Shown in pieces: positions 1 to 55,012 of a stretch of 64,000 nucleotides of DNA; within the stretch, counting starts at the first letter, position 1, and every line of letters starts with the position of its first letter. The stretch is taken from the NCBI GenBank assembly GCA_001972305.1, contig BDDD01006688.1, positions 23,563 to 87,562 on the forward strand. The letters are read 5' to 3'. The stretch is from Cephalotus follicularis. Lineage: Eukaryota; Streptophyta; Magnoliopsida; Oxalidales; Cephalotaceae. The notes under the pieces were generated by a model. It was given only the letters and a program-made list of their open reading frames with translations, was not told the origin of the DNA and did no database searches. Position numbers and translations under genes: made by a program.

Positions 1-316
1 CTCACTTAGTCATTTGGAATAATCCCCTCCCAGTTTTCTATTTCAGACGACGGTGAGCAGTTGCTAAGTCAAATTCTGTAGAGGATGGACCATGAGAGCA
101 GGGCATGCTACAAGGATTTCAACACATGCATAGCATAACTACATTAGCATTTAAATTATGCATTTGCTTATGTTTTTATATAAATGTTTTTCTTATGGTT
201 TTGCATTTAAAAGGCTGAGCCCTATAGATTTACTTTTCTTGCTTTGATGATATGGTTGAGGCTGAGCCCAACCCATACATGTTATTGGTTTAAATTGTGG
301 TTTTCTGAGGGCTGAG
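1..316 (+). mobile_element. Element A, left copy: part of LTR 3' half
   Basis: This stretch matches 63139-63440, inside the A LTR at the right end of the window, with shared blocks around the CTCACTTAGTCAT start and the GGATGGACCATGAGAG stretch. It breaks off at 316, where L1 is inserted, and resumes at 11801. The rest of this LTR lies left of the window, so I cannot tell a solo LTR from a full element. It is non-coding. Confidence 0.85.
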
Positions 317-1789
317 TGTAATACCCAGGTACGGTTTTGCAAAGGATCTTCCCTGTCATCTGCTCGTTCAGGTCTGGCCTGGTGTTTTATTATTCTTCCT
401 TGGGCCATTTGGGAGTCCTCTCTTGTGTATTATTGGGGCCCAACTGTGGTATGGGTGGAGAAAGTCATTTATTTTGACTAAGCCCATTAATGAAGCTTAC
501 AAGAGAAGCTCACTTTTACCAAGGTGATGAGACATGTTATGGGAGAGTGTGTGGAAGTGACATGTTGCCTTTGGGCAGAAGAGGGAGTCAGTAGGAAGAG
601 ATGGGTACGAAAAAGAAGAGAGAGAAGGAGAAGAGAAGAAGAAGAAGGAAGGAAGGAAGAAGGGAGAGCGCCGGGCGATCTCTATCTTGGTGAGTCGTGA
701 GTACTCCCTGTGAGGTTCAAGCTTTCTCTTCTGTTGGATTCTTACTTCTGGCGTGACCGAGTGTCTTCTCTGCAAGTCTTGTTTCTCTTCTTATCCATTT
801 CTTCTATGGTCGAACGTGGTTGAAGGTGATTTCTTGCTGGTCTTTGATGTCCCTACCCGAGTGTGGTATGGTGGATTCGACGTTCCTCAGTACTCTGAGC
901 AGTGAGTTGGTATCCCTGGCGTGTTTGACCTCTGAGATGGTGAAATGTGCATCCTCTGGTAGATCCGAAGCTCTAGGTGGGTTGTTTGAGTTCTTGGAAT
1001 GTGAGGAATCCAGTGGTATGGTGGATTCAGAGTTCTGAGGAACGGGTAAGCGTTGGAAGGGCTGGGCTTGAGAGACCCAGGTATGTGACGTTTTACTGTG
1101 AATTCGTTTATGGTCATACTAACTTAACCATTCTGTGTTGAGTTATTTATGAGCTTGTGTTTAGCACTAGATTCTGGGTAGACGAGGTTCCTCATGTCTT
1201 ATGCGACGAATGCAGCTGTTATGGCCATGTAAGATGTGTGCTCTTACCAAGGAGGTAGTGCGAGGTGCGTCCTGGCAAAGGAGTCAGTTGATGTGCGTCC
1301 CCTGTTGAGCAGAGCATGTTATGCTTTCCTTGCGGAGTAGTCCACGTCGGGCATCCCCTGCTGAGCAGTGTAAGTTAGGCCTTCCTTGCGGAATGGTCCA
1401 TGTCGGGCGTCCTTTGGTGAGTAGTGTATGTCAAGCATCTTCTTGAGCGTTTACTGGTTGAAGTGTTTCCTCGGTAGTGTTAAGCTCGTGATTACCGACG
1501 GGGGTGGGCTTGTGTAGCCCCTCGATCAAGGTTCATGTAGCCCATGACCATGTTGTTGGATCTTCAACGGAGTTTTTATTGTGCAGCTAAGGTGGTTCCG
1601 GCTATGGAAGTATGAGTTAGGAGGTTTTCCTTGGTTTGGCCGTCCTCCCGACCTCAGACCAGCTCGATCCCTGAAGATGTTTTTGTGAGTGAACCCTGGT
1701 GGATCTCTTGGGTACCTGGCCGGGGTGAGATTTCATCTCCTTAGTGTAAGTTGGGCGTTGGAGGGACCTCACGTGGTAGTCCCAGGCTT

Positions 1790-2239
1790 GGCGTTTGTCC
1801 CCGGTCCCTTGTGTTGATCCCAGGTTTTGCTGGTGGGGTTTTCCCTTAGCATTGCTGGCGTGGTGGTCCCTGGAAATTTTTGGTTTGGTGATTCCTTGGC
1901 TTGTTGGCGTGGTGGTCCCAGGCATTGCTGGTGTTGTGTTGATCCCTCGACATTGCTGGCGTGTAGATGCCAGGCGTTTCTGGTGGGGTGTTCCCTTGGT
2001 GTTGTTTGTGTAGTGGTCATCCGAAGCGTTGCTGGTGTGGCGATCCCTTGGCCTTGTTGGTGTTGTGTTGATCCCTGGCAATTGCTGACGTGGTGATCTT
2101 GGGATTCGCTGGTGTGGTGGTCTCCCCGGGCGCTTGCTTGTGTGGTAGTCTCCTCGGGTATTGTTTGCGTGGAAGTCTCTTTGGGGGTATCCTTGTGTTG
2201 AACTCTGACATTGCTGAGTAAGGTGTCTTCTCGGGCATT
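1790..2239 (+). repeat. L-family minisatellite 1
   Basis: Degenerate units of about 22-24 bp built on GGCATTGCTGGTGTGGTG plus a TCCC-type joint. E1 is inserted inside the array, which resumes at 4342-4400. Matching arrays lie near 9765-10140 in the 3' LTR and 51490-52110 in L2. Copy number differs between the three LTRs. Confidence 0.8.
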
Positions 2240-4341
2240 TGTAATACCCTGCTCGTTCGTAAATATATTTTTACTGATTTTATGTTTGTGTTTGGGCTTT
2301 TTAATTGTGTTTAATTTTAAAGTCCGGTTGCCCTTTGTTTTGGGCTTATGTGATTTTGGTTGTTTGATACAGCCTAAATATTTGGGTATGTCATGCTATG
2401 TAGGGTTGGCCTTTTAAATTATTTTTCTTATTATCCAAATTATTTTATTAAAAACAAATCACTTTTATTTTTATTTTTAAAATCCCTTAATTCCTTATTT
2501 TTCCCCTTTTCCTTTATTTTTCTTCCTTTTTTCTTTTCTTCTTATTTCCTTCTCCCTTCACCCGAAGTCTCCCTCTCTCCCTCATTATTTCCACACGGCA
2601 AATCTCCTTCTTCCTTTTCTATTCCCCACAAATCCTCTTCTTTTCCTTATGTGGGCAGATTTGGTCTCCATTTTTCCTTTTGTTGTGCCATTGCCATTCT
2701 ATAATTTCCTTCTTCATTCTCTGCCTTGTGCCATAGCCGAATTCTGCCTGTTAGTGTGTGATAATCTGCTGTGCAATTGTTTCCTTAAGTATGAAGAGGT
2801 AATCTCGATCCTTAGTTGTTTCTTTTGGGTTGAATTCACTTGGTTTGTTATGCATGTCAAAGCATGTTCTTGTTTTGTATTCTTTGGCCTCTGTTTTGTG
2901 TGCAACCGATTTTTGATAGTGTTGTAGTGGTATTCCTACTGTTTTTCTGGGTTCTTTATATCATTACAGGTCAGTTAATTCGTCTCCTCTAATGATAGTT
3001 TTGTTTCAATGTCATACTTTGAGTTTTTATGCTCTTGGTGTCTTGGTTTCGATTCCCATATCTAAATGTGTTGTCATTGTGTTAATATGGTTGTCAACAT
3101 GTTTTATGCACATAGATATGTCACAAACTGGTTTTATAACATGTAAAACTGATAAAAGACAGAATCTGGACACCCATGTATAAATGTCTTCTTGCTTCCT
3201 TTTGTAAGTTAACCCACCGTCAGGTTGTTTTCTTGTCAATTCTGTGTTTTTATGTCACCTACAAGTCATATATAATCATATGTTTATGTCCATATATCTC
3301 TGGTTTAATGTAGAAACCATTTGAACCATTTTCAGTATTGAATTGTCAAATTTCCAACTGTTCTGTCGCCCAGAACAGTCGGCTGTCTCTGTGGACAGTC
3401 GGCTGGAATGGATGAATAGCCGACTGCCACAAGAATGCAGTCGACTGCCTTAGGTTGAGTAGTCGACTGGAGGTATGAACACAGTCGACTGCCTGCACTT
3501 TAGTTTGAGTAGTCGACTGGACCTTTTGAATAGTCGACTATCTTGCTTCCCCAGTCGACTGGAGCCCTGTTTTAGTCTACTGTTTTGCCCAGAAATGTAC
3601 TGTTTTCAACTGTTTTAATTCGTTTGATCCCCGAATCGATCCGAATCTTTTCCAAACACTGTTAAGAGTCTGTTTAATACTTCTGGTGTGTTTTAGACTC
3701 TTATACGTATGTTTTTGAATGCCTTTTAGATTGTTGTGCTTCAAGTGGATTCCGTTTAAATTGTCTATTCGTAAGTACTTTGTGAGCGCATAAGGTACAG
3801 ATTTTCTGTTCCTTGGCTATCTAATATTTGAACTGAAAACAGTTTTACTAAGCTTCTTCATTTATGAAATTGAGAATGTTTTATGACTTTGACATGTTTC
3901 TAATTTAAAGTTGGTTTATGATTCCGACTTTATCCATACGATATGAAATGATACGATATGTTATGATACGATATGTTATGATACCGTTGTGAGCGGTTTT
4001 CTGAATATGTTGTGAGGAAACATATTTTATGTGATTTTGAATTGATTTCGATAAATCAATAATTTTGAAATAAATACTGAGTATTGTACCCACCTATTTT
4101 ATGTTTAGTGGACAAACATTGATAATTATGTTATATGTTTTAAATTGGAACTGAAATATGCTTTGAGTTTTCCGCAACTGCTCAATATGTTAAATGGTAA
4201 GTTTTAATGTTAAGATATGACTGCCACGTTTTTGGCTGTTATTGGCTAATAAAGTAAACTTATGATTTGATAAGTAATGTATATGCTCAATTAAGTCATG
4301 TTAACACCCTGTGACGACTCCCGCCGTCCGGGTGTGTTACA
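2240..4341 (+). mobile_element. E1: solo LTR, 2.1 kb, nested in L1 5' LTR
   Basis: It starts TGTAATACCCTG and ends GGGTGTGTTACA, with a perfect TSD GCATT at 2235-2239 and 4342-4346. There is no internal domain or second LTR, so it is a solo LTR. A pyrimidine-rich stretch lies at about 2490-2580, a phased palindrome array at 3376-3582, and three 15-bp units around ATACGATATG at 3936-3980. Its ends resemble E2 (24443-26453) and E3 (15242-15558). Short frames within it are not supported as genes. Confidence 0.92.
3376..3582. repeat. CAGTCGACTG palindrome array in E1, 21-bp phased
   Basis: Ten copies of the 10-bp palindrome or close variants (CAGTCGGCTG, TAGCCGACTG, TAGTCGACTG) start at 3376, 3396, 3417, 3438, 3460, 3482, 3510, 3531, 3552 and 3573. 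The steps are 20, 21, 21, 22, 22, 28, 21, 21 and 21 bp. Spacers of about 11 bp are largely unlike one another, although the bases after the word tend to alternate between CC and GA. Confidence 0.93.
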
Positions 4342-4904
4342 GCATTGCTAACTATGGTGTCTTCTCGAGCATTGCTGAGTACGGTGTGTTCTCGGGCATT
4401 TGCTGAGTGAAGAAGCTTCTCGTGTGTTTTGTTAAAGAAGTCTTCTCGGGCGTGAACCTTCTCGGGCATTATGCAAAGCGACCTTTTCGGACTTCCTGGT
4501 CTGGCGGTACGGCTGTTATAGTTTCTCCTCTTGTTTTTCTTGGGACAGTAGTAGACGAGCTTTGTTGTTCTCCTGTCCAGAACAGCTGGAGTAATTAGAG
4601 ATCCTTGGGCCTGGTATTCCGCAGTTCATTGGGTATCTTGAAGGTTGGTCTGATATTCCGTGGATGGTTTGGTGTTCCACCTCTGGGTTGGTAATCCATC
4701 TCTGGTCTTGCACTATGCCGTTGTTTGGTATTCTACAGTGGTCTAGGATGCGTGGCTCCTCTGGCATTGTGGTCTGTCGTGTGGTTTCCCCTTACGTTTG
4801 GTTCTCCTGGTGTTGCGGTTCCCCTGGCTTGTGGCTCCCCTGGCATCGCGGTTGCCGTTGTGGTTCCCTTAGCGTTGTGGTTCCCTTGGAGTACTTGTGG
4901 CGAG

Positions 4905-5290
4905 GTCTGGCATCCTGGTAAGGCATTATGCAGTGGCTGAGGTCTTGCATTCTGGTCTGGCATTATGCAGTGGCTGAGGTCTGGAATTCTGGTCTGGCAA
5001 TATGCAACGGCTGAGGTCTGGCATTCTGGTCTGGCAGTATGCAGCGGCTGAGGTCTGGCATTCTGGTCTGGCATTATACAGCGGTTGAGGTCTGGCATTA
5101 TGGTCTGGCAGTGTGCAGCGGCTGAGGTCTGGCATTATGGTCTGGTGCCGTGGTCTGGTCTAGCACTATCAAGAGCTTCTGGTTTGGCATTGTGGTCGGG
5201 CACTATATTGAGTTGTGGTCTGGCACTATGTCGAGCTTGTGGTCTAGCAACGTGATCTGGCTTGTGGTCGGGTACTTGCGGAGCTTGTTG
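4905..5290 (+). repeat. L-family minisatellite 2
   Basis: About six units of about 37 bp contain GGTCTGGCATTCTGG and GGCATTATGCAGCGGCTG, followed by shorter degenerate GGTCTGGCA units. Equivalents lie at about 10650-11060 (3' LTR) and 52330-52575 (L2). Confidence 0.85.
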
Positions 5291-6016
5291 TCTAGTACCT
5301 TGAAGTGTTAAGTGATCACGTGTAGAACTCGTGGGTGCTCTCCTCGGGTTTAAGTGATACGGTGCGTGTTGGTGTCTTGGAAGACAGTGATGAGGATTTA
5401 ATGAAACGGTGAGTTTGAGCTCCCAGCTCGTTGAAGTCCTCTGCTCCTTTCCTAGCGCATCCCTGGAGTGCTCTCCTCAGGTATTGTTGAGCAGTGGCAT
5501 TCTGGTTGGCATAGCTCCCTGGAATGAATGAAGTCTCGTGCGGCTTCCAGCTGTGTATGGCCTGCGTGGCTATCCTCTCATTCTTTGTAATTTCTAAGCT
5601 ATGTAACCTTGTATGTAATGAACTTCATACTAGTGGAACCTTGGCGCTGACTGAGGAAGTGGTCGTAGGCATATTCTATGCTGAACCACTATAAAATGAT
5701 GGTCTCATTCTTCTCTTCCTTTATTGTATATGCGTGCATGTTATGTAGGCCTGGTTCTGGTCCTCTGCCGGGGAGGCAGAGGATAGGCAAGACCTGGCGC
5801 ATGGCGCCAGGCCGCTGTAGTGGGAAGCCGAGGCGGAGGTGGACGTCCAGTCCTCTACTCTCGTGCTATGCTTGGATAAAAGAAAAAAAAATATAAGGGA
5901 GAAGATGAGAGAAGGAATGTATATGACAGGTTGGGCCATGGTCATGGTTAAAAGTCATCCCGATGGTAGTTTTCTTCTTAACGGCCCGGGCTCGGGGAAA
6001 CGGGTCGTTACAATTT

Positions 6017-6786: not shown

Positions 6787-8239
6787 GCTATGGTTACAGA
6801 TGCTAGTGAAACCTGATTTGCGAGGCTCTCATGGCCGAGGAGGAGTGGGCATTCGATCCCTATTCCATTCAGCAATGCCATTGTCTATGATGAGCTGTTG
6901 GGTGTGACTGGGTTCCATACCCGTATCCGCTCATTTCATTGGTCTATGATGGAATGTTGCATGGAGGGCAGCCAAGGATTCGCTATTTCTTTGGTCAGAC
7001 CATGCTGAGTTCTCGAACATGGGGTTGCCGACCAGGGATGGGTTGTGCAGTGATGCGCTGACCTCCTAGTCAATGTCCTCATCATGATTGCCGACAGGGG
7101 AGTTGCCTGCAGGCCCCTCAGTCGATGTTCATTGTTTGTGCATTGACCCTCGGAGATGTGTCGTACTTGCGAGCCGAGGACCTTCGATGGAAGTTGCCAC
7201 TGGAGCTAGGTGATTGCAGACGAGGGTTGAGCTCGGGCGGTAATACGTGAGTTCACTCGATCGATGTTCTCCTACACTATGCTGATGAGGGGGTGCGAAC
7301 TGCTGCAGTAGCTGGCCCTACATTAACGCTGGTGATCTGCCGTAACTCTCAGGGGGAGGGCCGTGCCTGATCAGCCGGGAACCTCTGGGAGCGGTCATGA
7401 GTCCTCAGGGGGAAGGATCGCGCATGTAGGACCGAAGAACCTCTGTTGGAGACTGAGTCATGGTATCCATGTAATGAGACATGTGTGTGGATAGGTGCAC
7501 TCCCTGTAGCCATGATTTTTCCTCCAGCCCAATGTACGCGCTGTTGAGATGAGCTGATGGACTTCAGCGGCAGATGCTTGTATGGGCCTGAGGGCCAAGG
7601 TTTTGGTTTGATGTGTTGTTTTGCAGGTATTGTGGATGTGACTCCACCAGGATTGAGGATCTCAAGACACGGCCGATGTGGTTTCGGCTTATCTTGTTAT
7701 CTTGTTGACGTGATGTTGGCACAGCATATATTATTGATTGATGGTCATTCCGGTCGGGCAGTGGTATCTGCTTATATATATATTGCTGATGAATTTTCTA
7801 GCTGAGCTCTTATGGTCTATGGACTTCTGGTGCAGCTTTCTTTTATCACTGCTGATGTTTATTCCAGCAGGTTATATCTTATTATTGGTATCAGTATGTT
7901 GCGGAGGAATGTTGTGGTTATGATTTCAGGGAAGCTCTTCTATTGCTGAAGTAGTTCCCGTGGTCTTAAGCATCCTCTGGTCCTTTGATACTATTATTTT
8001 CCTGGGCAACCTTGGTTTCCTCTGGAGATGAACGTCTTGCTAACCTGTTTTCTCGGATGGGTTGTCCTCGGGGTTATGTTGGTTAGCACCTCTGGACCTT
8101 GAGGAGTCCTCAGGTTACGAACTATGGAGTCCTTGCTTGGATGGGTTCGTTAGTCATTGTGAAGGTCTTACCAGGTAGCATGATCTCTCCTCGGGCTTCT
8201 GTCATGGCAAGCGAGCGAATTTCGGGGGCAAAATTTTTT

Positions 8240-8253
8240 AAAGGAGGGGAGGA
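8240..8253 (+). promoter_or_regulatory. L1 polypurine tract
   Basis: AAAGGAGGGGAGGA sits immediately before the 3' LTR, as expected for the plus-strand primer. Confidence 0.85.
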
Positions 8254-8254
8254 T

Positions 8255-11200
8255 TGTAATACCCAGGTACGATTTTGCGAAGGATCTTCCCTATCATTTG
8301 CTTGTTGAGGTCTGGCCTGGCGTTTTATTATTCTTCCTTGGGCCATTTGGGAGTCCTCTCTTGTGTATTATTGGGGCCCAAATGTGGTATGGGTGGAGAA
8401 AGTCATTTATTTTGACTAAGTCATTTATTTTGACTAAGCCCATTAATGAAGCTTGCAAGAGAAGCTCACTTGTACCAAGGTGATGAGACATTTATGGGAG
8501 AGTGTGTGGAAGTGATATGTAGCTATTGGGCAGAATAGGCAGTCAGTAGGAAGATGTGGGTGCGGAGAAGAAGAGAGAGAAGGAGAAGAGAAGAAGAAGA
8601 ATGAAGGAAGAAAGGAGAGTGCCACGCGATCTCTGTCTATGTGAGTCGTGAGTACTCCCTGTGAGGTTCAAGCTTTCTCTTCTGTTGGATTCTTACTTCT
8701 AGCGTGGCCGAGTGTCTTCTCTGCAAGTCTTGTTTCTCTTCTTCTCCATTTCTTCTATGGCCGAACGTGGTTGAAGGTGATTTCTCGTTGGTCTTTGATG
8801 TCCCTACTCGAGTGTGGTATGGCAGATCAGAAGTTCCTCAGTACTCTGAGCAGTGAGTTGGTATCCGTGGCGCGTTTAACCTCTGAGATGGTGAAATGTG
8901 GATCCTCTGGTAGATCCGAAGCTCTAGGTGGGTTGTTCGAGTTCTTGGAATGTGAGGAATCCAGTGGTATGGTGGATTCGGAGTTCCGAGGAACTGGTAA
9001 GCGTTGCAAGGGCTGGTCTTGAGAGACCCAGGCATGTGACGTTTTACTGTGAATTCGTTTATGGTCATACTAACTTAACCATTGTGTGTTGAGTTGCTTA
9101 TGAGCTTGTGTTTAGCACTAGATTATGGGTAGACGAGGTTCCTCAAGTCTTATACGACGAATGCAGCTGTTATGGCCATGTAAGATGCGTGTTCTTACCA
9201 GGGAGGTAGTGCGAGGTACGTCCTGGCAGAGGAGTCAGTTGATGTCCGTCCCCTGCTGAGTAAAGCATGTTATGCTTTCCTTGCGTAGTAGTCCACGTCG
9301 GGCATCCCCTGCTGAGCAGTGTATGTTAGGCCTTCCTTGCGGAGTGGTCCATGTCGGGCGTCCTTTGGTGAGCAGTGTATGTCAAGCATCTTCTTGAGCA
9401 TTTACTGGTTGAAGTGTTTCCTCGGTAGTGTTGAGCTCGTGATTGCTGACGGGGGTGGGCTTGCGTAGCCCCTCGATTAAGGTTCATGCAGCCCATGATC
9501 GTGTTGTTGGACCTTCAACAGAGTTGTTATTGTGCTGTTGAGGTGGTTCCAGCTATGGAAGTGTGAGTTAGGAGGTTTTCCTTGGTTTTGGCCGTCCTCC
9601 CGACTTCGGACCAGCTCGGTCCCTGAAGATGTTTTTGTGGGTGAACCCTGGTGGATCTCTTGGGTACCTGGCCGGGGTGAGATTTCATCTCCTTAGTGCA
9701 GGTTGGGCGTTGGATTGACCTCGGGTGGTAGTCCCACGCTTGGAGTTTGTCCCGGGGCCCTTGTGTTGATCCCAGGTATTGCTGGTGGGGTGTTCCCTTG
9801 GCATTGCTGGCGTGGTGGTCCCTGGCAATTTCTGGTGTGGTGATTCCTTGGCATTGCTTGCGTGGTGCTCCCAGGCATTGCTGGTGTTGTGTTGATCCCT
9901 CGACATTGCTGGAGTGTAGATCCCAGGCTTTTCTGGTAGGGTGTTCCCTTGGTGTTGTTTGTGTAGTGGTCATCCCAGGCATTGCTGGTGTGGCGATCCC
10001 TTGGACTTGTTGGTGTTGTGTTGATCCCTGGAAATTGCTGGCGTGGTGATCTCGGGCATTCACTGGTGTGGTGGTCTCCCCGGGTGCTTGCTTTTGTGGT
10101 AGTCTCCTCAGGTATTGTTTGCGTGGCAGCCTCTTTGGGGGTTGCCTTGTGTTGATCTCTTCTCGGGTGTTTTGTTGAAGAAGTCTTCTCGGGCTTGAAC
10201 CTTCTCGGGCATTATGGAAAGCGACCTTTTCGGACTTCCTGGTCTGGCGGTATGGCTGTAATGGTTTCTCCTCCTCTTGTTTTTCTTGGGACAGTAGTAG
10301 ACGAGCTTTGTTGTTCTCCTATCCAGAACAGCTGGAGTGGTTAGAGATCCTTGGGACTGGTATTCCGCAGTTGATTGGGTATCTTGAAGGTTGGTCTGAT
10401 ATTTTGTCGATGGTCTGGTGTTCCACCTCTGGGTTGGTAATCCATCTCTGGTCTTGCACTATGTCATGGTCTGGTATTCCGCAGTGGTCTAGGGTGCGTG
10501 GCTCCTCTGGCATTGTGGTCTGCCATGTGGTTTCCCCTAACGTGTGGTTCTCCTGGTGTTGCGGTTCCCATGGTTTGTGGCTCCCCTGGCATCGTGGTTG
10601 CCATTGTGGTTCCCTTAGCGTTGTTGTTCCCTTGGAGTACTTGTGGAGAGGTCTGGCATTCTGGTCGGGCATTATGCAGCGGTTGAGGTCTGGCATTCTG
10701 GTCTGGCATTATGCAGCGGCTGAGGTCTGGCAGTATGCAGTGGATGAGGTCTTTCATTCTGGTCTGGCAGTATGCAGCGGCTGAGGTCTGGCATTCTGGT
10801 CTGGTAGTATGCAGTGGCTAAGGTCTGGCATTCTTGTCTGGCATTATACGGCGGTTAAGGTCTGGCATTCTGGTCGGCAGTATGCAGCGGCTGAGGTCTG
10901 GCATTATGCTCTGGCGTTGTGGTCTGGTGCCGTGGTCATGTCTGGCACTATGCAGAGTTTGTGGTCTGGCATTGTGGTCGGGCACTATGCTGAGTTATGG
11001 TCTGGCACTATGCCGAGCTTGTGGTCTGGTATCGTGGTCTGGTTTATGGTCGGGTACTTGCGGAGCTTGTTATATAGTACCTTGAAGTGTTAAGTGATCA
11101 CGTGTAGAACTCATGGGTGCTCTCCTCGGGTTTAAGTGATACGGTGCGTGTTGGTGTCTTGGAAGACAGTGATGAGGATTTAATGAAACTGTGAGTTTGA

Positions 11201-11795
11201 GCTCCCAGCTCGTTGAAGTCCCCTGCTCCTTTCGTAGCGCATACCTGGAGTGCTCTCCTCGGATATTGTTGAGCAGTGGCATTCTGGTTGTCATAGCTCC
11301 CTGGAATGAATGAAGTCTGGTGCGGCTTCTCGGCTGTGTATGGACTGCGTGGCTATCCTCTCATTCTTTGTAACTACTAAGCTATGTAACCTTGTATGTG
11401 ATGAACTTCATACTAGTGGAACCTCAGCGCTGACTGAGGAAGTGGATGTAGGCATATTCTGTGCCGAACCACTATAAAAATGACTGTCTCATTCTTCTCT
11501 TCCTTTATTGTATATGCATGCATGTTATGTAGGCCTCATTCTGGTCCTCTGCCGGGGAGGCAGAGGATAAGCAAGACCTGGCGCGTGGCGCCAGTCCGCT
11601 GCAGTGGGATGCCGAGGCGGAGGTGGATGTCCAGTCCTCTGCTCTCGTGGTATGCTTGGATAAAAGAAAAAAGTTATAAGGGAGAAGATGCGAGAAGGAA
11701 AGTATATGACAGGTTGGGCCACGGTCATCGTTAAAAATCATCCCGATGGTAGTTTTCTTCTTAACTGCCAGGGCTCGGGGAAACGGGTCGTTACA
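8255..11795 (+). repeat. L1 3' LTR
   Basis: This 3541-bp LTR is uninterrupted and aligns with the 5' LTR. It has a purine-rich tract at about 8565-8620, minisatellite 1 at about 9765-10140, minisatellite 2 at about 10650-11060, a TATAAAAATG near 11471 and the CTGGCGCGTGGCGCCAG hairpin near 11580. It differs from the 5' LTR by scattered substitutions and repeat-number changes, so the insertion is not very recent. Confidence 0.9.
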
Positions 11796-12081: not shown

Positions 12082-12115
12082 CCACGTGTCCGCCCTGCGG
12101 GCGTGAGGTGTTACA
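12082..12115 (+). mobile_element. Stub of a D-family LTR 3' end
   Basis: CCACGTGTCCGCCCTGCGGG followed by a GTGTTACA end matches the last bases of the D LTRs (to 18892, 37712 and 57484). It is followed directly by EPRV sequence beginning GTAAT. The simplest reading is a D-family LTR in the EPRV that was hit by A about 35 bp before its end. Confidence 0.6.
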
Positions 12116-12118
12116 GTA

Positions 12119-13196: not shown

Positions 13197-13333
13197 AAAA
13201 AACGAAGAAACAAATTACACATTTATAACAAATATTATTACAAAATCATTCATCTTCTTCTGATAAAGAGATTGAACCAATTGATCCTATTAATCTAGAA
13301 ATTCAAGAAGAAACATCAACCAAATTTATCAAT

Positions 13334-16387: not shown

Positions 16388-16633
16388 TCAGAAAAGCTTA
16401 CCATATGATGAAACCATTCACAACCAACGGGAAATCCACATTAGCAACTTTGAAGTATGACGACCTGAATTCCCTTTTGTACTGTTCATGCATACATTGT
16501 ACCATATTGTACTGTATCAGACCATATTGCATTGTATGGAATTGAGGTATTCTTATACCTATTGTTATTGTATTGATTAATGCATGTATAGTCGGGATTT
16601 TGGACTGAGTTTCGGAGAATTCGTCGGACTGAC

Positions 16634-16640
16634 TATATAA
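16634..16640 (+). promoter_or_regulatory. Putative TATA box of D LTR
   Basis: TATATAA lies about 180 bp after the LTR start, followed by a pyrimidine-rich stretch near 16660-16740. It is retained in the solo LTR near 55292 but mutated to TATAGAA near 31835. If used, transcription would start near 16665 and the palindrome array would be in the transcript. Confidence 0.6.
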
Positions 16641-17175: not shown

Positions 17176-17505
17176 GACATCGACCCCAGCCCATGGACGT
17201 CGATGTCTTTCGCTTTGGAATGCTGCATCTTTGATTCTGCAGTAAAGACATCGATGTCTTTGAAAGGCGTAGACGTCTTTGCCTCGAGATTTCTTCGCCC
17301 CAGAGAAAGACATCGATGCGGAACATCGATGCGTATTTCCATGCCATTTTTTATCGAAACGCGTCGACGTCTTTCTCCAAGGGCATTGACGTCTTCGGCC
17401 AGATCTCTATACAAATAGAGAAAGATATCGATGTATTTCAAAGACATCGACATCTTTCCACTGTTTTAAAGGAGGCGTCGACGTCTTTCGCCAAGGACAT
17501 CGACG
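17176..17505. repeat. AAAGACATCGATGTCTTT palindrome array, D 5' LTR
   Basis: TCGA-type cores lie at 17180, 17200, 17251, 17270, 17313, 17326, 17364, 17386, 17428, 17447, 17478 and 17500. Many come in pairs 19-22 bp apart. Perfect or near-perfect 18-bp palindromes alternate with hybrid words such as GGCGTCGACGTCTTT. Confidence 0.88.
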
Positions 17506-17615
17506 CTTATTGGGCTGAAAGGAGTTTTTAGCTATTTCAAAGCTGGTTTTCAAATTCTTTTCAGATTGTCGCTTAACTGGAGCCTCACTTGAGGTGTTCA
17601 AGTGTTTGAAAACGG

Positions 17616-20552: not shown

Positions 20553-20700
20553 GCGTCTACGCCTTGAGTGAAGCGTCGACGCCTAAGAAATTAAAATGCG
20601 AACGTAAGCCATGCACATGCACGTCGACGCCTATGGATAGCGTCGATACCTTTGATGCCAAACGCTATAAGCGTCGACGCCTGAATGTAAACGTCGACGC
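20553..20700. repeat. GCGTCGACGC palindrome array, B proximal
   Basis: Cores at 20556, 20576, 20624, 20643, 20674 and 20694, with steps of 20, 48, 19, 31 and 20 bp. Spacers are unrelated to one another. Confidence 0.88.
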
Positions 20701-21485: not shown

Positions 21486-21910
21486 GTGTCGACTCCCATG
21501 ATAAGCGTTGACGCCTTCATGTGTAAAATGGGTAGTAGACGTTGACGCACAAGAAAGCGTCGATGCCTTTCAAGAACAATTTGCAGAACGTGACATTTCT
21601 TACAGGTGCATGAAATGTCACTTATAATCGTATGAACTGTTGATGGATTGATGAAATGGTGTTACGTATGGGTAACTTGTAATGCGTACTACGCATGTAA
21701 TGAAAGTTTCTGGGATTTCATATGAGTTTGGGGGTTTGATTCTCCCCTGGAATGGAGACTGCTGGAATGATGCTTTCTGGTATCACAAAAGCGTCGACGC
21801 CTTTGGAAAAGCGTCAGCGCCTTTAGTTCTATCACACCTAGGAATCGAGTATACGAACGTTGATGGTTTGTGATGATAAGCGTTGACGCCCTGAGGATAA
21901 GCGTCGACGC
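21486..21910. repeat. GCGTCGACGC palindrome array, B distal
   Basis: Two clusters, with cores at 21489, 21508, 21542, 21560 and at 21794, 21814, 21860, 21883, 21904. Steps within pairs are 18-23 bp. The last unit is the 14-bp palindrome AAGCGTCGACGCTT. Confidence 0.85.
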
Positions 21911-22866
21911 TTATCCTCCTGTTTTGAATAGTCCTACTTGGATTGGACTCGTTAACTCCGAAACGACTCTAGGCGCGTTGAGCATATGGTTGCATTGCAC
22001 TTGCATTTGTATTGGGTCTGAATTGTGGATTGATGGATTGAAATGGATTGTTTAATTGCTTTAAAAATGAATTGTCATTTTTAGGAGTTGCATACATGAT
22101 TTATTACAAATCTTTATTTTGTACAAACTACTATGTTCAAATGAAATCGTAGTTTCAAATCGGATTGATGCATGTTTGAATGAACATGCCATTTAAAAAT
22201 GATTGTTACATATTTTGCATAAATATGTTGTTACAAGTATTTTATAACGCATAATTTACTTGGAAAATGGATTGATGCATGTTTTGAATAAACATGATGT
22301 TTAAACGGATTGTTATATATTTTGATAAATATATATATGTTTTCAAGTAATCATAGATAATTTGCTTGAATTGGATTGTGGATTGTGGATTTTGGCTTTT
22401 AGTCGCGTGGTGGAGATTGCCATGGATGGCTAATGGCGGGTTTCTTTCTAGGTGCCAGGAGTTGGCTAGAGTTACCCATGTGGATTGGTTACTTAGCTGC
22501 ATGCTAGTAACATTGGATTATGGTCTGCTTCATGTCGTCCGGAGTCAGGACAGGAGTGAGGAGTATAGCATCTGAGCCAGGAGGTGGCGATGTCTTCGTA
22601 GCATTTGTCTGCATTTTGGATTGTTGGATTGTAGCCATTCGGCATGTTTGCTATATTGGCGTTATACATGTATATACACAAATATATATATATGTATCAG
22701 ATACTATGTATTTGTAACGCCCGGGAGTTTCGCATATTGTAATTTTTGATTTTCAAGTGTAATCTTATTGTTGATTAATGAGAAAGATGAATTTCTCGGG
22801 TAATGTGTTGATTCTAAATCAATTAAAGTACTTAGAAGTGTGATCACTTAGTAAGTACTCTAAGAG

Positions 22867-23005
22867 CAGTCGACTGGTGCGGTAGACCAGCCGACTGGTT
22901 GACTGTGTATGGGAACAGTCGACTAGTGGGATGAACCAGTCGACTGGCCAGCTGTCGAGCCACATGGCAACGAACAGCCGGCTGTTGGGTGTGGACAACC
23001 GACTG
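22867..23005. repeat. CAGTCGACTG array, C proximal
   Basis: Units start at 22867, 22888, 22916, 22937, 22975 and 22996, with steps of 21, 28, 21, 38 and 21 bp. An extra GGTTGACTG overlaps near 22896. Confidence 0.9.
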
Positions 23006-23817
23006 GTTTGTGCTCTGTTTTATTGCATGTGATGAGATCACATGCAACAACTGACAAGAGCACCTTGCAGGCGCCATCTGATGATAGATGAAACGTGTAT
23101 GTCATGCACATAACTACTGGAACCTGCAAAGACTGAAGGAAAGGGTAGATTGACATGTGTGTGTGCATGCAAGTGATATAAGGGAACTAATGGCATTAAG
23201 TGCTAGGGAAAAATGGGTTGGAGAAGAGGGAGAGGAAACCACCTGCATAAAACGCCCTCCTCTTCACCTCTCTCGCCCAGTGCATGCAATGAAGGAAAAC
23301 ACAGTGAGTTTGAAAGGAGAAAAGAGGAAGAGGGATTTTGTCCAACTATTGAACCAAGAAGGAAAGCTTGGAGGAGACAAATTCGAGCTACTGGACTGGA
23401 GTTGGAGCTTCTGGGGAGCTCAAAACGTCACTGTTGGAACACAAAGAGGTGGACTTACAGATTCCTAACTTGGAATCAAGAGGTAGGGGAAGTTATGATT
23501 GTATTTTTGAGTTCAAGATTACTGCATGTTATACGATTGGTTGCCTGCTTGTATAAGCTGTGATGTCCAGTTGATATGCCATGATCACTGCTGGTTTACG
23601 CATGCCATATTTACTATGGAAAATCCTTGAACTTATGTTCATGCATGTTGAATTTTATCTTGGTATTGGATTGCTGGATAAAATGCATGCTTACTGTTGT
23701 GTTATATGAACCTGTTGAGGACTATTTGACGATATTATGTCTTGAGAATATATATGGTTGCTTGTAATGATCCCTTGAGTGATATATATTGGATTGCATG
23801 TAACTGGTTATACAGAG

Positions 23818-23983
23818 CAGTCGACTGTCGAAGGAAGACAACCGACTACTCAACCTAATCAGTCGACTGTTGAAGGATAACAATCGACTGACTGATGAAC
23901 AAGTCAACTAGTAGAAGGAACCAGCCGACTACTCATGTACTGATTACCCAGAACAGCAGACTGGTGAAGAATCCAGCCGACTG
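23818..23983. repeat. CAGTCGACTG array, C distal
   Basis: Units start at 23818, 23839, 23860, 23881, 23901, 23922, 23954 and 23974, with steps of 21, 21, 21, 20, 21, 32 and 20 bp. Variants include CAACCGACTA and CAGCCGACTG. Confidence 0.92.
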
Positions 23984-24576
23984 CCGAGCTGCTGTTTGGT
24001 TCTCTCTTGCTTAAAATGATGCGCGATGACCCCGACTCCGTTTAGGATGCATTAGAGCATTTGTATGCATTGCATATGTACTGTGCACTACCTTTTCATT
24101 GACTGATTATGACTGTTTATGATTTCTAGATTACAATGTTAATTTGGGAATGCATATGTGAAACCGAAAATGACTATTTGGAATGCAAAATAGCTCTTTG
24201 ATAATAACACGTTTTCAAACAACTGGGAAAGTGATTTCCACTCTACTGAACTGTCTAAAGTATTTTCTATCTATTAGAAATACGTATTTCAAATGTTGTC
24301 ACTTTCGAAAATATTTGAAAATGAATTGCCTATTGTCGATCTAAACGATCACTATTGTACTGCTTACTGCACTGTTTACTGTATTGATTCACTGCGTTGC
24401 TCTGTGAATTTACTATGTTTGTGCTTGAGCCACTAGTTGCATTGTAATATCCCGCTTCTATGTTGACATGTTTATATGTTTATTGTTGGGATTGTATCCT
24501 TTTGAGTTATGCTATGGTTTGTGGACCTCTTCGATTTTTGTTTGAATTTCTTTTATTTTTGCTTTCTGGGCACAAA

Positions 24577-24683
24577 GCGTCGACGCTCTTATTAGAACCG
24601 CCGACGCTTTGGCTGCTGTGTGGCACGTTGACGCCTAAACGTGTGACATCGACGCATTTTGTATTTAAGTGCTTAAGAGTCAA
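24577..24683. repeat. GCGTCGACGC array, E2 first cluster
   Basis: Cores at 24580, 24601, 24628, 24649 and 24680, with steps of 21, 27, 21 and 31 bp. Several units extend to AAAGCGTCGACGC or GACGCTTTG. Confidence 0.85.
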
Positions 24684-25453
24684 CGCTTTAGTCGGCTTTC
24701 CATACCAGTTTGGACGGTGACAGTGTTTTTGGAATGTTGGATTCTTTCCTTTTTCTGTCTATCCGATTTCCTTAAGTTTTTGACGCGTTTTGATTAGTAT
24801 AGTAATGTCTTAAAATACTGATTTTGTCAATTAAAAACATGGATTTTCGCATTTAACCAGACAAAATCGTTTTTAAAGCATAAACCCTTTCTGCGTTTTT
24901 ACAAACGAACAACAACTTTGCAAGCCATTTTCTACACTGATTTTGACGTCTTTTGCAGGTAACTTCTAAACGAAAATTGTAGCTAGTATTATGTAGTTTC
25001 TATACCACCCATTAATTCATATTGAAACATGCTAGAATTTGTTTGTGAGCATGATTTTAGAAGCCTATTGAAACTAAATTTCTGCTGTGTTCATTCGTGG
25101 GTTTTATGCATAATTTGTAATATTGATGATTAAAAACAAGAAATCATGTCATTGACGTATGAATATATATATATATATATATTACTGTTTTTACGGATTA
25201 TATACAGGAAAAATCAGATTGTAGTTCATGATTTTGTAAACTATTTTAAAACCATGTTTTGATATGAACATACTATGCTAAACTTGTTATTTCATGATTT
25301 TGTATTTATAATCACCGTACTGATTGTTACACACTCATATGACATGTTTTTAAGTCTGGTTATTGCTACTATAGCTTTTGTATATGAAAAATATGAGTTG
25401 TTCATGAGTTTGAAACTAGTTTTCTGCAACTGGTATTCTGTGTCTGACGCAAA

Positions 25454-25580
25454 CCGTCGACGCTTTCGTTCCGAGCATCGCCGCTTTGTGTTGTTTTGTG
25501 ACTTGGTCAGTCGACTCTTTGCTCGACACTTTGTCCTTTTGTGCGATGAAACCGTCGACGCCTAGGAACAAACTGTCGAC
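25454..25580. repeat. GTCGACGCTTT array, E2 second cluster
   Basis: Cores at 25457, 25478, 25511, 25523, 25555 and 25575. One unit reads TCAGTCGACTC, which resembles the word used in E1 and C. Confidence 0.82.
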
Positions 25581-27841
25581 GCTTTATGGCAGTTTTGATG
25601 TTTGTTTCTTTTTATGTTATGTGATGTTTGGACTTATATGTTTAGGTCTTAATATCATCAGTGGTGGAGTTTAGGACACTTCTAGGTTGCTTTTGTCCGG
25701 TATTCTAGTTTGTTTAGACTTTTGTCTTACTAAGGTACGGATTCTTCGTTCTTTGGTACTCTTTCGATTAAACTTTCATTAATTGATGATTTTGTACGTT
25801 TTACCAAACGGATTTATGTTCTTCGTTTTATTAGAAATAAAACCTATATTTTGATACAGATATTCTCGTTTTGATAATAGTCATATTAAAATATATTTTA
25901 TTACATCGGATATGGATATGCATATTTCTGTTATCGTAAATGTGTTATCGTTTTAGACATGGCTTCCACTTTCGGAGTATGTTAACTTCAGATACAGTTA
26001 AGATTTTGTTTTCAGATAAAATCAGAAATTGTTAAAATTGTTTTAGAACAAAACAATGTTTTTAGCATAATAACATATAGAGAAAAACCCTACCTATGAG
26101 GTATCATAGGCATGTTCTTTGGCACGGAGGACATGACACCTATTCAGAAGGATGGGGAAAACGTGTGATAAGAGTTACCCACTTGTCAGAGGATCAGCTA
26201 GGAGTTGGTCCATTGTGTCTTCAGTAGAGTTGATTATGTTATGAGTTTTATCAGCTTAGTTTTCTCAGACATCGGATTATGGTTGTTTAAGTTATGATTT
26301 GTTAAAATTTCAGACTCTGTTTTATATTATTTTATTATAAGATATGTTTTTAGACCACCACATCCGTTTCGCACCAGTCTTTTGTTTAGATTTCCGTTAT
26401 GTTTCAGTTTGGTATTATGACCTGTAAGGGCTCCCACCATCGGGGGTGTTACATGCATGGCGGAGACTGCCAGCGCCGGCTAGTGGTAGGGTTGACCTAG
26501 GAGCCAGGAGTTGGCTGGGTAACTCACTGTACTGTACTGTTGCCTCGCTTGGTTTCCTAGAGGAGGGACCGAAGTGGAAGTGTAACTTGGGGCCAAAAGA
26601 TGGCGGCGTTACACATACTGCCTGCCTGTTGTGGTCCTTTTACGGACTTACTGTACTGCCTATTGGTCCTTTTCGGACATTACTGTTCCTGTTCACGTAG
26701 CCCTGGTCGGGCTACTACTGTACTGTTATTGCATACATATATCTTTAATACATATGTCCCTACTGTTATTTTTATTGTACTGCTAAAATATACATATATT
26801 TCATATATGTAAACTGGTATTTCCTGCACTATATCATTTATGCATACATCACATGACATGGATTTAACGTTGATCCTGAACTACTTTTATGACTTAGTCG
26901 AGTGAGGACAAAGGCTAACCCCCTAATTTACAGATTGATGCAGTGGACCGGTTGGACCGGCTTGGACGAAGAACAAGCCTTATGTTGTTGTTGTTGGTTT
27001 CATATTCTGGTGGATTGTAATAAACTGGTTTTGCTTAAGTACTGCTGATGTACCGTACTTTTGACTTTGTTTAACGTTGGACTTTAATTTCGTATGGATC
27101 ACGCTCCGTTTCGTGGGCTCTTAACAATGACAGACTTGTTTTGAGTAGCGTGCAGTATGGGATGCACGTTACGTGTTTTTCAGCTTATGAGTTTAATGCT
27201 TCTGCAACTGATGTCTTGTTTTTTTTAAAGTTTAAATTTTTATGGTATTTACATGAGCTGAATCTAAATGTTAATTGCCTTTACCGCTTTGAATGTTGTC
27301 TTACCAAGAAATCAGGGCGTGACAGTATTGCATCCACGATTGCATACATTACATGACATGCATTATCTTGGATCCCGACTTGTATTTATGACTTTACTAC
27401 TTAGCCAAGTGAGGACAAAGGCTAACCCCCTACTATTGTAGATTGATGTGGCAGGTTTTATGGCTGTGCGTTGTTGGATTGAAGAGAAGACTGGGACGTT
27501 TTCTCTTATGTTTGTTATGAACAATGAACAATCGTTATTTACTTTGGGTTATGTATTTTAAGGATAATATGTTTATCCTGGATAATGATGATGTGTAATC
27601 GTATTCTTATAATCACGATGCGTTTCATGAGCAATCGACAATGATGTTGTGTTTTGTAATGAACAAATTCGGTATCACGTAGTATGGGATGCGTGATACG
27701 TACTTTAATTCGACTTATGTATATGAATGCTTCCGCTAACGAAAGTTTTAATTTATTCGTAAATTCGCATAAGCTGCATATTTTTGTGTCGATTGCTTTT
27801 ACCGCTTTAATGTTGTCTTATATGGGAAGTGGGGTGTGACA

Positions 27842-28053: not shown

Positions 28054-29014
28054 TGTCACACCCCGTTTTTCGGTGCCATATTTAGACGAGCATATATGGC
28101 GATATCAGTATTAAACATACATTCCAGCATTTCATTTAACAGTTCATAAACAGTATGCGGAAGCAGTCAATAAGCCAGAATATATAAAAATATAAGTCTT
28201 CGCACGCATCCCATACTACGTGCGGTTACAAGTCAAATTATCCTTAACATAAGGAAACATCATAAACGAGGCATGATTCGTTCATTACAGTAATTTGAGA
28301 TTAAGCATTCTCCTAGATAATCTACTGTAGGATTACAATAACACAAGGGTTCGAATTGGACTTACCAGGAGATGATCAAAGTTCCCCTTTCTTCTTTGAG
28401 TTTTAACTCCAAACCTTCCAATGCAAGTTCTCCAATCACTTCCAGCAATTCTTTCAATCTCAAGTGTTTCTAACACTCTTTCTCAACTCATTTTCAGAAG
28501 ATATAGAAGTCCTAAGAGCTTAGAATTCGTCAGGTTATCAAACTCTACCTTCTCACCCTTATCCTCTCACTCACATGCATGTGTTTTCTTTCACTTTTCT
28601 TTCTTGATTCATGTAATTGCAGGGTCTGCAATCTTTGCAGAGGCGCAGAGGACATGCAAAGCATCACATTGCAAGTCATGGCCGCTTAGGACACTTGTCC
28701 CATTAATTTCCATGCCTAAGCTCAGCTTGACACCTGCACAGACACATGTTCTGTCGAATTTACAGTCGACTGGATTCATGTGGCAGTCGACTGGACATTA
28801 CACGAGTCAGGCAGTCGACTGATCCCCTATGTCAGTCGGAGGTCAATGTTCAAATTAGGGTTTCTTAAGTAGATTTCCATGAATTTGCATCCCAATTCAT
28901 TCCAAGCAAAATTACCAATTCACAAATTGCAATAATTGGACATTAAATTCAAATAAGTGCACATTTTATTAATCATTATTACACTGTACACTAATTGAAT
29001 TTGCGGTTCTTACA
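28054..29014 (-). mobile_element. I1: 961-bp solo LTR in D RT
   Basis: On the minus strand it begins TGTAAGAACCGC and ends CGGGGTGTGACA, with perfect TSD GCACC. It is much shorter than the other LTRs here. It carries four CAGTCGACTG-type words. The same family (I2) starts at 63789 in plus orientation. A 133-codon frame inside it has no family match that I recognise. Confidence 0.9.
28763..28842. repeat. CAGTCGACTG array in I1
   Basis: Four units start at 28763, 28784, 28812 and 28833, with steps of 21, 28 and 21 bp. The last unit ends GG rather than CTG. Confidence 0.88.
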
Positions 29015-39531: not shown

Positions 39532-39776
39532 CAGTCGGCTGTCTCTCCTGACAATCGGTTGTTTTCCTTCAACAGTCGGCTGTCCCTCATTGGCAGTCGG
39601 CTGCCTTCAACCATTCAGTCAGCTTCCCTCTTGGCAGTCGGCTGCTTTCTCTTAACAGTTGGCTGCCCTCTTGGCAGTCAACTGTTTTCTCTCAACCAGT
39701 CGACTACCCTCCCTTGGCAGTCGACTACTCAACCTTCTGCAGGTATTCTCTATTAAGACGTATGAACAGTCGACCG
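39532..39776. repeat. CAGTCGGCTG/CAGTCGACTG array, H left LTR
   Basis: Units start at 39532, 39552, 39573, 39594, 39616, 39635, 39656, 39675, 39697, 39718 and 39767, with steps of 20, 21, 21, 22, 19, 21, 19, 22, 21 and 49 bp. Beyond K the array continues at 42741, 42763, 42784, 42805 and 42825 (22, 21, 21, 20). Spacers are pyrimidine-rich on the plus strand and tend to alternate between CCCTCTTGG and TTTTCTCTCAA types, which suggests a 42-bp super-unit. Confidence 0.93.
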
Positions 39777-42732: not shown

Positions 42733-43390
42733 CGTTTGCATAGTCGGTTGTTTACCATTAAGCAGTCGGCTGCTCACACTGAGCAGCCGACTGCTCTTGC
42801 TTAGCAATCGGCTGCCCTCCGTGGCAGTCAACTGGATTTGCGGGCAGTACACCAAAATAGCAGAAAATACATGCAATTCTCACCCTAACCCATTCAAAAT
42901 GGAGCATTCATCAACCACAACACACATTCATGCTCATATCACAGTCTATTGCATGCATTTCATCTATGGACATCCTTTATAATTGAACATAAATCACAAT
43001 TATAAAATACCCCTACCTTTGAATTCTAAGTTAGGAATTACAATCCACCTCTTTAAGTCCCGAATCCGAGGCGTTCAAAGCTCCCAAGTCCGTCCAATGA
43101 CTCCACCAAGCTTGGTTCTTCCACTGATTCGAGCCTCCAAGTCCTCAATCCAAGTACGGAGAATTTGGGTTTCAATTCTCTCTCTCTTTTCTCTCCTTTC
43201 TTCCTCACAAACTCTCTATTTCTTTTTCTCTCTTGGAAATGCTGATTGAATGAGGAGGAGAGTGTGTGTTTTTATGGGAAATTCGTGCCTCTCCTCACCA
43301 ACCGACAATGCTCAGCAACCATTGTCCTCTCTCCCACTTTCTCTGCAAAAACAGGTCTATCAAAACGTTTTTAACTGACAGACCGCATGG

Positions 43391-43467
43391 CAGTCGACTG
43401 CCTCACCTCGGCAGTTGGTTGTCTCAGCCGATAGCCCCAGCCGGCTGTTTCTCCCGGCAGTCGGCTG
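43391..43467. repeat. CAGTCGACTG array near H LTR start
   Basis: Units at 43391, 43412, 43438 and 43458, with a partial CAGCCGATAG at 43425. In the other LTR the matching cluster is at about 54778-54852. Confidence 0.85.
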
Positions 43468-54351: not shown

Positions 54352-54550
54352 ACAGTCGACTGTCTCTCTTGACAGTCGTCTGTTTTCCTTCAACAGTCGG
54401 CCTCATTGGCAGTCGGCTGCCTTCAACCATTTAGTCGGCTGCCCTCTTGGCAGTCGGCTGCTTTCTCTCAACAGTCGGCTGCCCTCTTGGCAGTCAGATG
54501 TTTTCTCTCAACTAGTCGACTGCCCTCCCTTGGCAGTCGACTGCCCTCCC
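54352..54550. repeat. CAGTCGACTG/CAGTCGGCTG array, H right LTR
   Basis: This matches the left-LTR array, with a short loss near 54393 and a duplicated CAGTCGACTGCCCTCCCTTG at the end, where the 0.48-kb deletion begins. A second cluster is at 54778-54852. Confidence 0.9.
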
Positions 54551-55012
54551 TTGGGTTTCAATTCTCTCTCTCTCTTTTCTCTCCTTTCTTCCTCACAAAC
54601 TCTCTATTTCTTTTTCTCTCTTTGAAATGCTGATGGAATGAGGAGGAGAGAGTGTGTTTTTATGGGAAATTCGTGCCTCGCCTCACCAACCGATAATGCT
54701 CAGCAACCATTGTCCTCTCTCCCACTTTCTCTGCAAAAACAGGTCTGTCAACACGTTTTTAACTGACAGACTGCATGGCAGTCAACTGCCTCACCCCGAC
54801 AGTTGGCTGTCTTCACCGACAGCCCCAGCCGGCTGTTTCTCCCGGCAGTCGGTTGGCTCCCTGCTTCTTCACATCACAACTTTCCTTAAAACTTTTCATT
54901 CAAGCATTAACTTCCCACGGAGGAAAACTCATAATTCTCAATAATTAAATGCATAATTTCCATTGGAAATTACAATATCACACTAAGGAAAAATCCCAGG
55001 CGTTACAATATC

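Follow-up and report, generated by a model that had tools for sequence, protein, structure and literature searches.

The 64-kb stretch of Cephalotus follicularis DNA described here (contig BDDD01006688.1, positions 23,563 to 87,562; hereafter the window) carries long terminal repeats (LTRs) of retrotransposons in which short palindromes recur at a nearly fixed step. One of them is a solo LTR nested in a larger LTR (Table 1). It begins with TGTAATACCC, ends with GTGTTACA and is flanked by the target-site duplication (TSD) GCATT at 2235-2239 and 4342-4346, and it matches the LTR of the Ty3/gypsy element E5 at 76% over 1936 bp. Inside it lies array A, ten copies of the word CAGTCGACTG or a near variant that start at 3376, 3396, 3417, 3438, 3460, 3482, 3510, 3531, 3552 and 3573. 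A preliminary description of the window, made from its letters alone, had reported steps of 20, 21, 21, 22, 22, 28, 21, 21 and 21 bp for these words, and exactly this series was recovered. The other series that it listed were also located, at 23818 (21, 21, 21, 20, 21, 32, 20), 39532 (20, 21, 21, 22, 19, 21, 19, 22, 21) and 28763 (21, 28, 21, the fourth word being degenerate). Here we follow these words through the genome and propose that the arrays probably serve as binding platforms for a host transcription factor.

Abundance and spacing of the words

With at most two mismatches allowed, the window holds 72 matches to the word, against 18.15 expected and 30 in the richest of 100 shuffles. 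The exact spaced pair gives six matches at five places in the window and none in 100 shuffles. In an unselected 200-kb stretch (contig C1), we counted 137 CAGTCGACTG words with at most one mismatch, compared with 0-8 for each of six control palindromes, as well as 44 occurrences of GCGTCGACGC, which proved to be another word that forms arrays. When all 10-bp palindromes were counted in C1 and the window together (264 kb), 73 perfect copies of CAGTCGACTG were present where 0.09 would be expected, and 17 of GCGTCGACGC where 0.01 would be; AT-repeat palindromes, with 69 and 72 copies, ranked next to CAGTCGACTG. A further 20 genome loci were picked for the exact pair; the word-core and unbiased palindrome counts exclude them and come from C1, the window or both. 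Around the 73 perfect words, a distance autocorrelation for which no neighbour had been called as a word put the mean match to the word at 0.50 for offset 21 and, more weakly, at 0.31-0.32 for offsets 28, 42 and 49, where the background is 0.24.

The excess of 21-bp spacing also holds across the whole assembly that contains the window (1,577,397,061 bases), where a reversed palindrome of the same composition was the control. Exact CAGTCGACTG pairs at a step of 21 bp number 25,896 (control 89), flanked by 8,471 at 20 bp (36) and 2,777 at 22 bp (7). Counts fall to 236 (1) for 23-26 bp combined and rise again to 7,682 (13) at 27-28 bp. Steps of 10-19 bp yield 1,082 pairs (5), nearly all at 19 bp among the matches listed, and those of 22-50 bp a total of 44,772 (126). 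For GCGTCGACGC, 1,915 pairs stand 21 bp apart (control 3). These pairs are family copies related by descent, so their numbers show how sharp the rule is rather than how often it arose. The window shuffles, the autocorrelation and the genome-wide pair counts together rule out a chance origin of the arrays.

Conservation of words and spacers

We compared words and spacers in 12 representative arrays out of 63, the 12 being from C1 and the window. Words average 0.865 identity within arrays and 0.864 between them, spacers 0.347 and 0.265. Words were called by similarity, which raises their figure and gives no such help to the spacers. As the preliminary description had it, then, words are conserved and spacers largely are not. 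Spacer identity in array A is 0.25-0.27, and its spacers are no more alike than their own shuffles (0.37 against 0.36); those of E4 (0.49 against 0.39), array 2 of LTR C (0.54 against 0.41) and LTR H (0.54 against 0.46) are modestly above them.

The spacers are nevertheless not wholly free of constraint. In a sample that takes in the loci chosen for the exact pair, 30 of 190 distinct spacers contain CAGGG (shuffle mean 2.4, maximum 8); where the spacer is 11 nt long, the motif sits at its centre in 24 of 26 cases. Among 39 distinct wide spacers of 17-18 nt, CACG is present in 26, mostly in the middle (shuffle mean 4.0, maximum 9). Arrays were grouped by their 220-bp flanks, since flanks of 400-600 bp chained families together through nested elements; this gave 14 groups, some of which are two arrays of one LTR.

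The preliminary description had called for substitution rates to be compared between words and spacers, and here the contrast is reversed. Between the two LTRs of one element, in six elements, and in two further comparisons of H and I1 copies, words have changed more than spacers since insertion (41/647 versus 18/886). They do so because their make-up, CAG-T-CG-A-CTG, consists of CG and CHG sites. At such sites they change no faster than the rest of the aligned stretch: words and rest differ at 11/124 and 70/368 of CG sites, 26/279 and 55/445 of CHG sites, and 1/242 and 24/4899 of A/T sites. Inserted copies thus decay, yet words remain alike across families, which implies that selection maintains them in active copies.

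The variants themselves point the same way. At position 4, 98 of 218 words (copies included) carry T>C, against 3 with T>A and 1 with T>G; it is the sole change not of the deamination type seen more than 10 times. Deamination cannot produce such a tolerance of T or C at this position.

Elements that carry the arrays

The arrays belong to elements of two superfamilies. Pfam searches found domains of Ty3 type (reverse transcriptase (RT)/RNaseH, integrase, gag or SH3_Tf2-1) in H, E3, E5 and E6, either next to the LTRs or enclosed by them, and LTRs A, C and D are assigned to gypsy through LTR homology to E5, H and E3, respectively. The E6 polymerase has 71% identity to its best match, and its named relatives come from plants such as Cucumis, Tanacetum and Vitis. 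E1 encodes a Ty1/copia gag (PF14223). E4 gave no gag or pol match in the one open reading frame (ORF) searched of five listed, and no polymerase domain was found in that ORF or in the four searched of six listed for E1. Both elements have two AAAAAGGGGGAGA tracts, the terminal one at the 3' LTR (GGGGGAGATTG/TTGG); multiple polypurine tracts (PPTs) of this kind are of Sirevirus type. We term them "Sirevirus-like" because the exact Sirevirus primer-binding-site string TATCAGAGC was not found after the 5' LTR of either. Their LTRs hold 12 (E1) and 17 (E4) word matches with at most two mismatches, lying upstream of TATA-like motifs (CTATAAAAG at 4938 in E1 and CTATAAG at 158338 in E4, contig C1). 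Further words, at 7490-7674 (E1) and 159089-159160 (E4), directly precede ORFs that match PF20167, with 63.5 bits in E4 (cut-off 45) and, below the cut-off, 39.4 and 27.9 in E1. We take PF20167 to mark the envelope-like ORF.

An unbiased search for the best palindrome covered 24 LTRs or LTR-like repeats, not all of them independent, with 30 shuffles each and with two-letter-only words left out beforehand. The best palindrome exceeded the shuffle maximum in 13 of the 24, and all 13 are centred on TCGA. CAGTCGACTG came first in nine LTRs and passed in eight: the Sirevirus-like E1 and E4, and the gypsy-type E3, E5, E6 and H (by domains) and A and C (by LTR homology). An identical word is therefore used by Sirevirus-like Ty1/copia elements and several Ty3/gypsy LTR families in one genome. 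GCGTCGACGC passed in two (LTR Gb and that at C1:12346), and ACGTCGACGT or ACATCGATGT in three (C1:102703, window 16458 and window 55130). The element at C1:102703 has a copia gag and a Sirevirus-type PPT, and element B, with LTRs at 16458 and 31658, encloses ORFs for Ty3-type RT, RNaseH and integrase. This third word family, ACRTCGAYGT, thus also occurs in both superfamilies, less regularly spaced.

Two irregularities were seen in elements of C1. The 5' LTR of E6 (C1:184062-192643) lacks about 1.3 kb that is present in the 3' LTR, array 2 included. The pol region of E3 contains a perfect 394-bp tandem duplication (C1:68450-69237, copies 100% identical), which may be an assembly artefact or a recent event.

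Arrays around the putative promoter

Three gypsy-type LTRs of the window place their arrays on both sides of a TATA-like motif. LTRs C and H are collinear homologues (58% over 2145 aligned bp), and Gb and H share three collinear blocks of 64-73%. CATAAAA lies in the aligned part of C (534) and H (343), and at a like place in Gb (623), outside the aligned blocks. Upstream of this motif, in LTR coordinates, array 1 spans 196-343 in Gb, 155-293 in C and 152-228 in H; downstream of it, array 2 spans 1129-1553, 1106-1271 and 785-1135, respectively. The words themselves differ. Over both arrays, Gb has 14 words of the GCGTCGACGC (GCG) type and no CAG-type word, and C and H have no GCG-type word.

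Proposed function

We suggest that the arrays are cooperative DNA-binding platforms through which a host transcription factor would control LTR transcription, and on the evidence above we think this probable. A sequence-specific protein would occupy each 10-bp word of the double-stranded DNA, probably as a homodimer, because the words are palindromes; the platform for dimers put forward in the preliminary description is supported, on sequence grounds. Neighbours two helical turns apart would bind one face and cooperate, and the 27-28 bp step would leave room for a second factor, often on the central CACG. The likely task is to turn on LTR transcription or hold it open, since the arrays of C, H and Gb flank the putative promoter and those of the Sirevirus-like LTRs precede the TATA box; the start sites assumed here are putative as well. 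That Sirevirus-like Ty1/copia elements and several Ty3/gypsy families share the word in one genome makes a host protein, exploited by unrelated elements, the most likely factor. Element lineages also appear to switch between related factors, given that all arrays of one gypsy LTR may be built from a TCGA-centred word other than that of its homologues.

A broader and more speculative version would be an "operator code" common to both superfamilies. A host family of dimeric proteins would read TCGA-centred palindromes whose three flanking bases (CAG, GCG or AC[G/A]) set the channel, in a layout typically of two turns and often around a central CACG; unrelated elements would converge on one channel, and homologous LTRs would switch channel across all arrays. 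We regard this as possible but doubtful, because the spacing in element B is irregular and a non-TCGA word passes in two LTRs.

A number of observations weigh against these proposals. The 27-28 bp step (2.67 turns) and the block gaps of 50 and 60 break the pattern of whole turns, and the words of element B have no regular step. No palindrome exceeded the shuffle maximum in 11 of the 24 LTRs; these include D (CAGTCGACTG) and G (GCGTCGACGC), whose best words equalled the maximum, window 31658 (the partner of 16458) and C1:48120, where a decayed array is seen. A lower-ranked word not centred on TCGA, ATGCATGCAT, also passed in 16458 and 55130. The 39 wide spacers come from the first listed contigs, mostly from one gypsy LTR type, and the wide spacers of arrays A and C contain no CACG. 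LTR D lacks array 2, and family A has no upstream array but a single one far inside the LTR. The TATA and splice assignments were made by eye or by pattern, and the arrays of Gb and H do not align unit by unit, so that whole-array replacement and unit-wise change look the same. CHH sites, of which words have few, decay more in words than elsewhere (4/26 against 104/2100), and word CpGs decay somewhat less, though not clearly so (Mantel-Haenszel odds ratio 0.53, z -1.83). Finally, CAGGG is common to Sirevirus-like and gypsy groups, which allows for an exchange of arrays between elements.

Alternative explanations

The reader of the words might instead be encoded by the elements, as an anti-silencing protein comparable to VANC of the VANDAL elements, which are DNA transposons; unrelated families would then share the protein of one element. 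Differences in word between homologous LTRs do resemble the coevolution of VANC with its motifs, which are short, lie densely in noncoding repeats, vary between family members and are recognised by a sequence-specific protein (PMC5735166). However, the VANC motif YAGTATTAY has one orientation, and the accessible text of that study describes no palindrome or fixed step for any VANC motif. No candidate gene turned up here, in the course of work that included no search aimed at such genes; the ORFs of array elements matched ordinary gag/pol domains, PF20167 or nothing in Pfam, and one ORF of E1 gave weak leucine-zipper matches below the cut-off. A host factor accounts more simply for a word shared across superfamilies, and we consider an element-encoded reader unlikely. 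The words could also act in RNA, where the preliminary description had suggested pairing between units or between two genomes. Transcripts would form hairpins, or pair between genomes, for packaging or as templates for small RNAs; maize Sirevirus palindromes have been proposed to act in this way. Palindrome clusters in the LTR cis-region of maize Sireviruses have been linked to small RNAs (PMC10760457), and as RNA the strand 3366-3592 folds far better than its shuffles (z -7.3). A strong fold must be expected of any palindrome array, to judge from its sequence, and shuffling the spacers alone changed it little in 7 of 10 arrays; the exceptions are the H arrays 2a (z -3.7) and 2b (z -2.9) and array 1 of LTR C (z -2.5). 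Of the two strands, the sense gives the better fold in A, E5 and array 1 of C, but the reverse is true of E1 (antisense -156 versus sense -90 kcal/mol) and E4 (-204 versus -142). In Sirevirus-like LTRs the asymmetric words have the sense GCCGAC in 18 cases and GTCGGC in none, which breaks self-pairing; the preference in gypsy arrays is 11 to 6. A step of 20-22 bp is, moreover, unnecessary for pairing. Because the spacers add little, the sense strand of the Sirevirus-like LTRs is biased toward GCCGAC, the step is fixed and the arrays flank the putative promoter, we favour double-stranded DNA as the acting form and hold RNA pairing as the selected function to be quite unlikely.

Two further accounts concern origin. 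Recombination or template switching may have transferred arrays between Sirevirus-like and gypsy elements, in which they would now be kept by descent, with function secondary. Such exchange would explain why CAGGG, mostly at one offset (24/26), is found in 14 of 47 spacers of the Sirevirus-like group FAM0 and also in the gypsy groups FAM5 (5/36), FAM6 (9/34) and FAM3 (1/27) and in the unclassified FAM9 (2/5). Yet spacers hardly resemble each other between arrays, 9 of the 14 groups, most of them small, have CAGGG in no spacer, and descent leaves the conserved words and spacing unexplained. As a complete explanation we find it distinctly improbable; as an account of origin, exchange is compatible with the host-factor platform. 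The remaining candidate is a minisatellite, a 21-bp unit duplicated in tandem and then decaying neutrally. Local duplications do exist, with a period of about 40 in H and I1, and some spacers are, as noted, modestly above their shuffles. Genuine tandem repeats look different. The spaced pattern matched 9 viral and 59 bacterial or archaeal stretches, and 12 of these 68 loci had at least four words within 150 bp. We judged the regular ones to be ordinary tandem repeats and rejected them as relatives of the arrays. In seven bacterial minisatellites with the same pattern, chosen from the 12 loci for clear periodicity, spacer identity is 0.63-1.00, against about 0.35 here. The greater change of words after insertion is also opposite to what passive retention predicts. 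With spacers less conserved than words between units in the 12 arrays, we reject minisatellite decay, which is hardly credible, in favour of selection on word and geometry, as the preliminary description had supposed.

Relation to known systems

Arrays of host-protein sites in retroelement control regions are known from the Su(Hw) array of Drosophila gypsy and the 21-bp repeats of HTLV-1, which differ from those described here in word and host. As for the protein itself, the cores GTCGAC (101), GCCGAC (70) and GCCGGC (3) account for most of the 218 words, and the first two fit RYCGAC, the core recognised by CBF/DREB. These proteins are candidate readers and may provide a lead; alone, they would explain neither the palindromic flanks nor the two-turn step.

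The closest relatives are the RM boxes of Sireviruses, and the view in the preliminary description that no LTR element of this kind had been described does not hold. RM boxes are palindromic, high-copy words that precede the TATA box in LTRs; they also stand 5' of the envelope-like ORF and are conserved amid divergent flanks. The core GTCGAC recurs in the published Vitis word, CGGTCGACCG (Bousios 2010, PMC2829016). That paper reports sites for stress-related factors in them and suggests regulation by such factors. E1 and E4 largely fit its account, with gag in E1, PPTs, at least eight words per element and words before the TATA box. In its accessible text, however, RM boxes are reported for Ty1/copia, nearly all with a CGG-CCG signature (Tnd-1 is listed among the Sireviruses without it), and no fixed spacing is described for any. 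Here palindromic words, mainly CAGTCGACTG, fill Ty3/gypsy LTRs too; CAGCCGACTG has only CCG, and CAGCCGGCTG is rare (3 of 218 words). No CGGTCGACCG pair at 19-22 bp exists in the whole assembly. The papers searched do not report the use of an identical word by gypsy, the strict step of 20-22 bp together with the 27-28 bp step and its frequent CACG, arrays that flank a putative promoter as in LTRs C, H and Gb, or the second and third words. The arrays in gypsy LTRs A, C, D, H, E3, E5 and E6 would work like RM boxes, outside the published definition, which is confined to Ty1/copia Sireviruses.

Maize Sirevirus palindromes also cluster in the LTR, with CACCGGACNNNGTCCGGTG as the copia word; as far as the accessible text goes, such structures are concentrated in copia LTRs, and Ty3 generally lacks an obvious peak (PMC10760457, 2023). 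In ONSEN and other heat-responsive COPIA elements, LTRs of different families have repeatedly gained host factor sites (Pietzenuk 2016, PMC5059998). Those are heat-shock elements within COPIA, however, and the accessible part of that paper describes no long phased palindrome array across superfamilies. A literature search, with most subscription journals outside its reach, returned no report of palindromic word arrays in gypsy LTRs, a 21-bp rule, a word shared across superfamilies or a word difference between homologous LTRs, and the literature consulted names no reader protein for Sirevirus palindromes.

The occurrence of one word in Ty3/gypsy LTRs, its strict geometry and the word difference between homologous LTRs should make the reader protein directly findable, and the question of how unrelated elements come to share one host control becomes testable. 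As the genome holds word pairs by the tens of thousands, the factor, if it exists, could also influence many nearby genes.

Other features of the window

The remaining arrays of the window are listed in Table 1 with the LTRs that bear them.

Table 1. Palindrome arrays in the window and the LTRs that bear them
Feature	Position	Strand	Remarks
Solo LTR bearing array A	2240..4341	+	
Array A	3376..3582	+	ten words, CAGTCGACTG or near variant
Element B LTRs	16458-18896 and 31658-33777		relative at 55130-57487
ACRTCGAYGT words, element B LTR	17197..17506	+	gypsy; irregular spacing
LTR Gb array 1	20553..20700	+	GCGTCGACGC words; LTR from 20358, apparently resuming at 27325-27841 beyond LTR C
LTR Gb array 2	21486..21910	+	GCGTCGACGC words
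Solo LTR C	22713..27324	+	TSD GTATT; solo LTR G nested inside
LTR C array 1	22867..23005	+	upstream of CATAAAA (~23246)
LTR C array 2	23818..23983	+	downstream of putative promoter
Solo LTR G	24443..26453	+	TSD TGCAT; GCGTCGACGC-type words
LTR G array 1	24577-24686		steps 21, 27, 21, 31
LTR G array 2	25454-25582		
Solo LTR D	28054-29014		TSD GCACC; LTR similar to gypsy E3 LTR
LTR D array	28763..28842	-	steps 21, 28, 21; last word degenerate
LTR H array 2, remainder	39532..39776	-	
LTR H array 2, first part	42741..42834	-	broken by nested LTR ~39784-42735
LTR H array 1	43391..43467	-	LTR starts at 43619 on the minus strand, adjoining gypsy pol 43803-47045
LTR H array 2 copy	54353..54543	-	in partial LTR 53294-55007
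LTR H array 1 copy	54779..54855	-	

The window contains several solo LTRs. Between 20358 and 27841 the nesting is triple, with solo LTR G within solo LTR C within LTR Gb, and the pol region of element B apparently encloses Gb in turn. Several gypsy families share, in their array 2, an extended spacer beside one word (GGTTGAGTAGTCGACTG or near variants), at loci that include C1:191209, window 3452 and window 23818.

An element at 314-6012 and 8252-11795 has very long LTRs (about 3.5 kb), a short internal part and abundant tandem repeats of 25, 37 and 52 bp; the unbiased search, with 30 shuffles, found no palindrome above shuffles in this LTR type. At 12107-13912 and 58192-58791 there are AT-rich ORFs that match a retroviral-type protease (RVP, 13229-13909) and DUF7588, and which we presume may derive from an endogenous pararetrovirus; 58140-58749 is 94% identical to 12115-12723.

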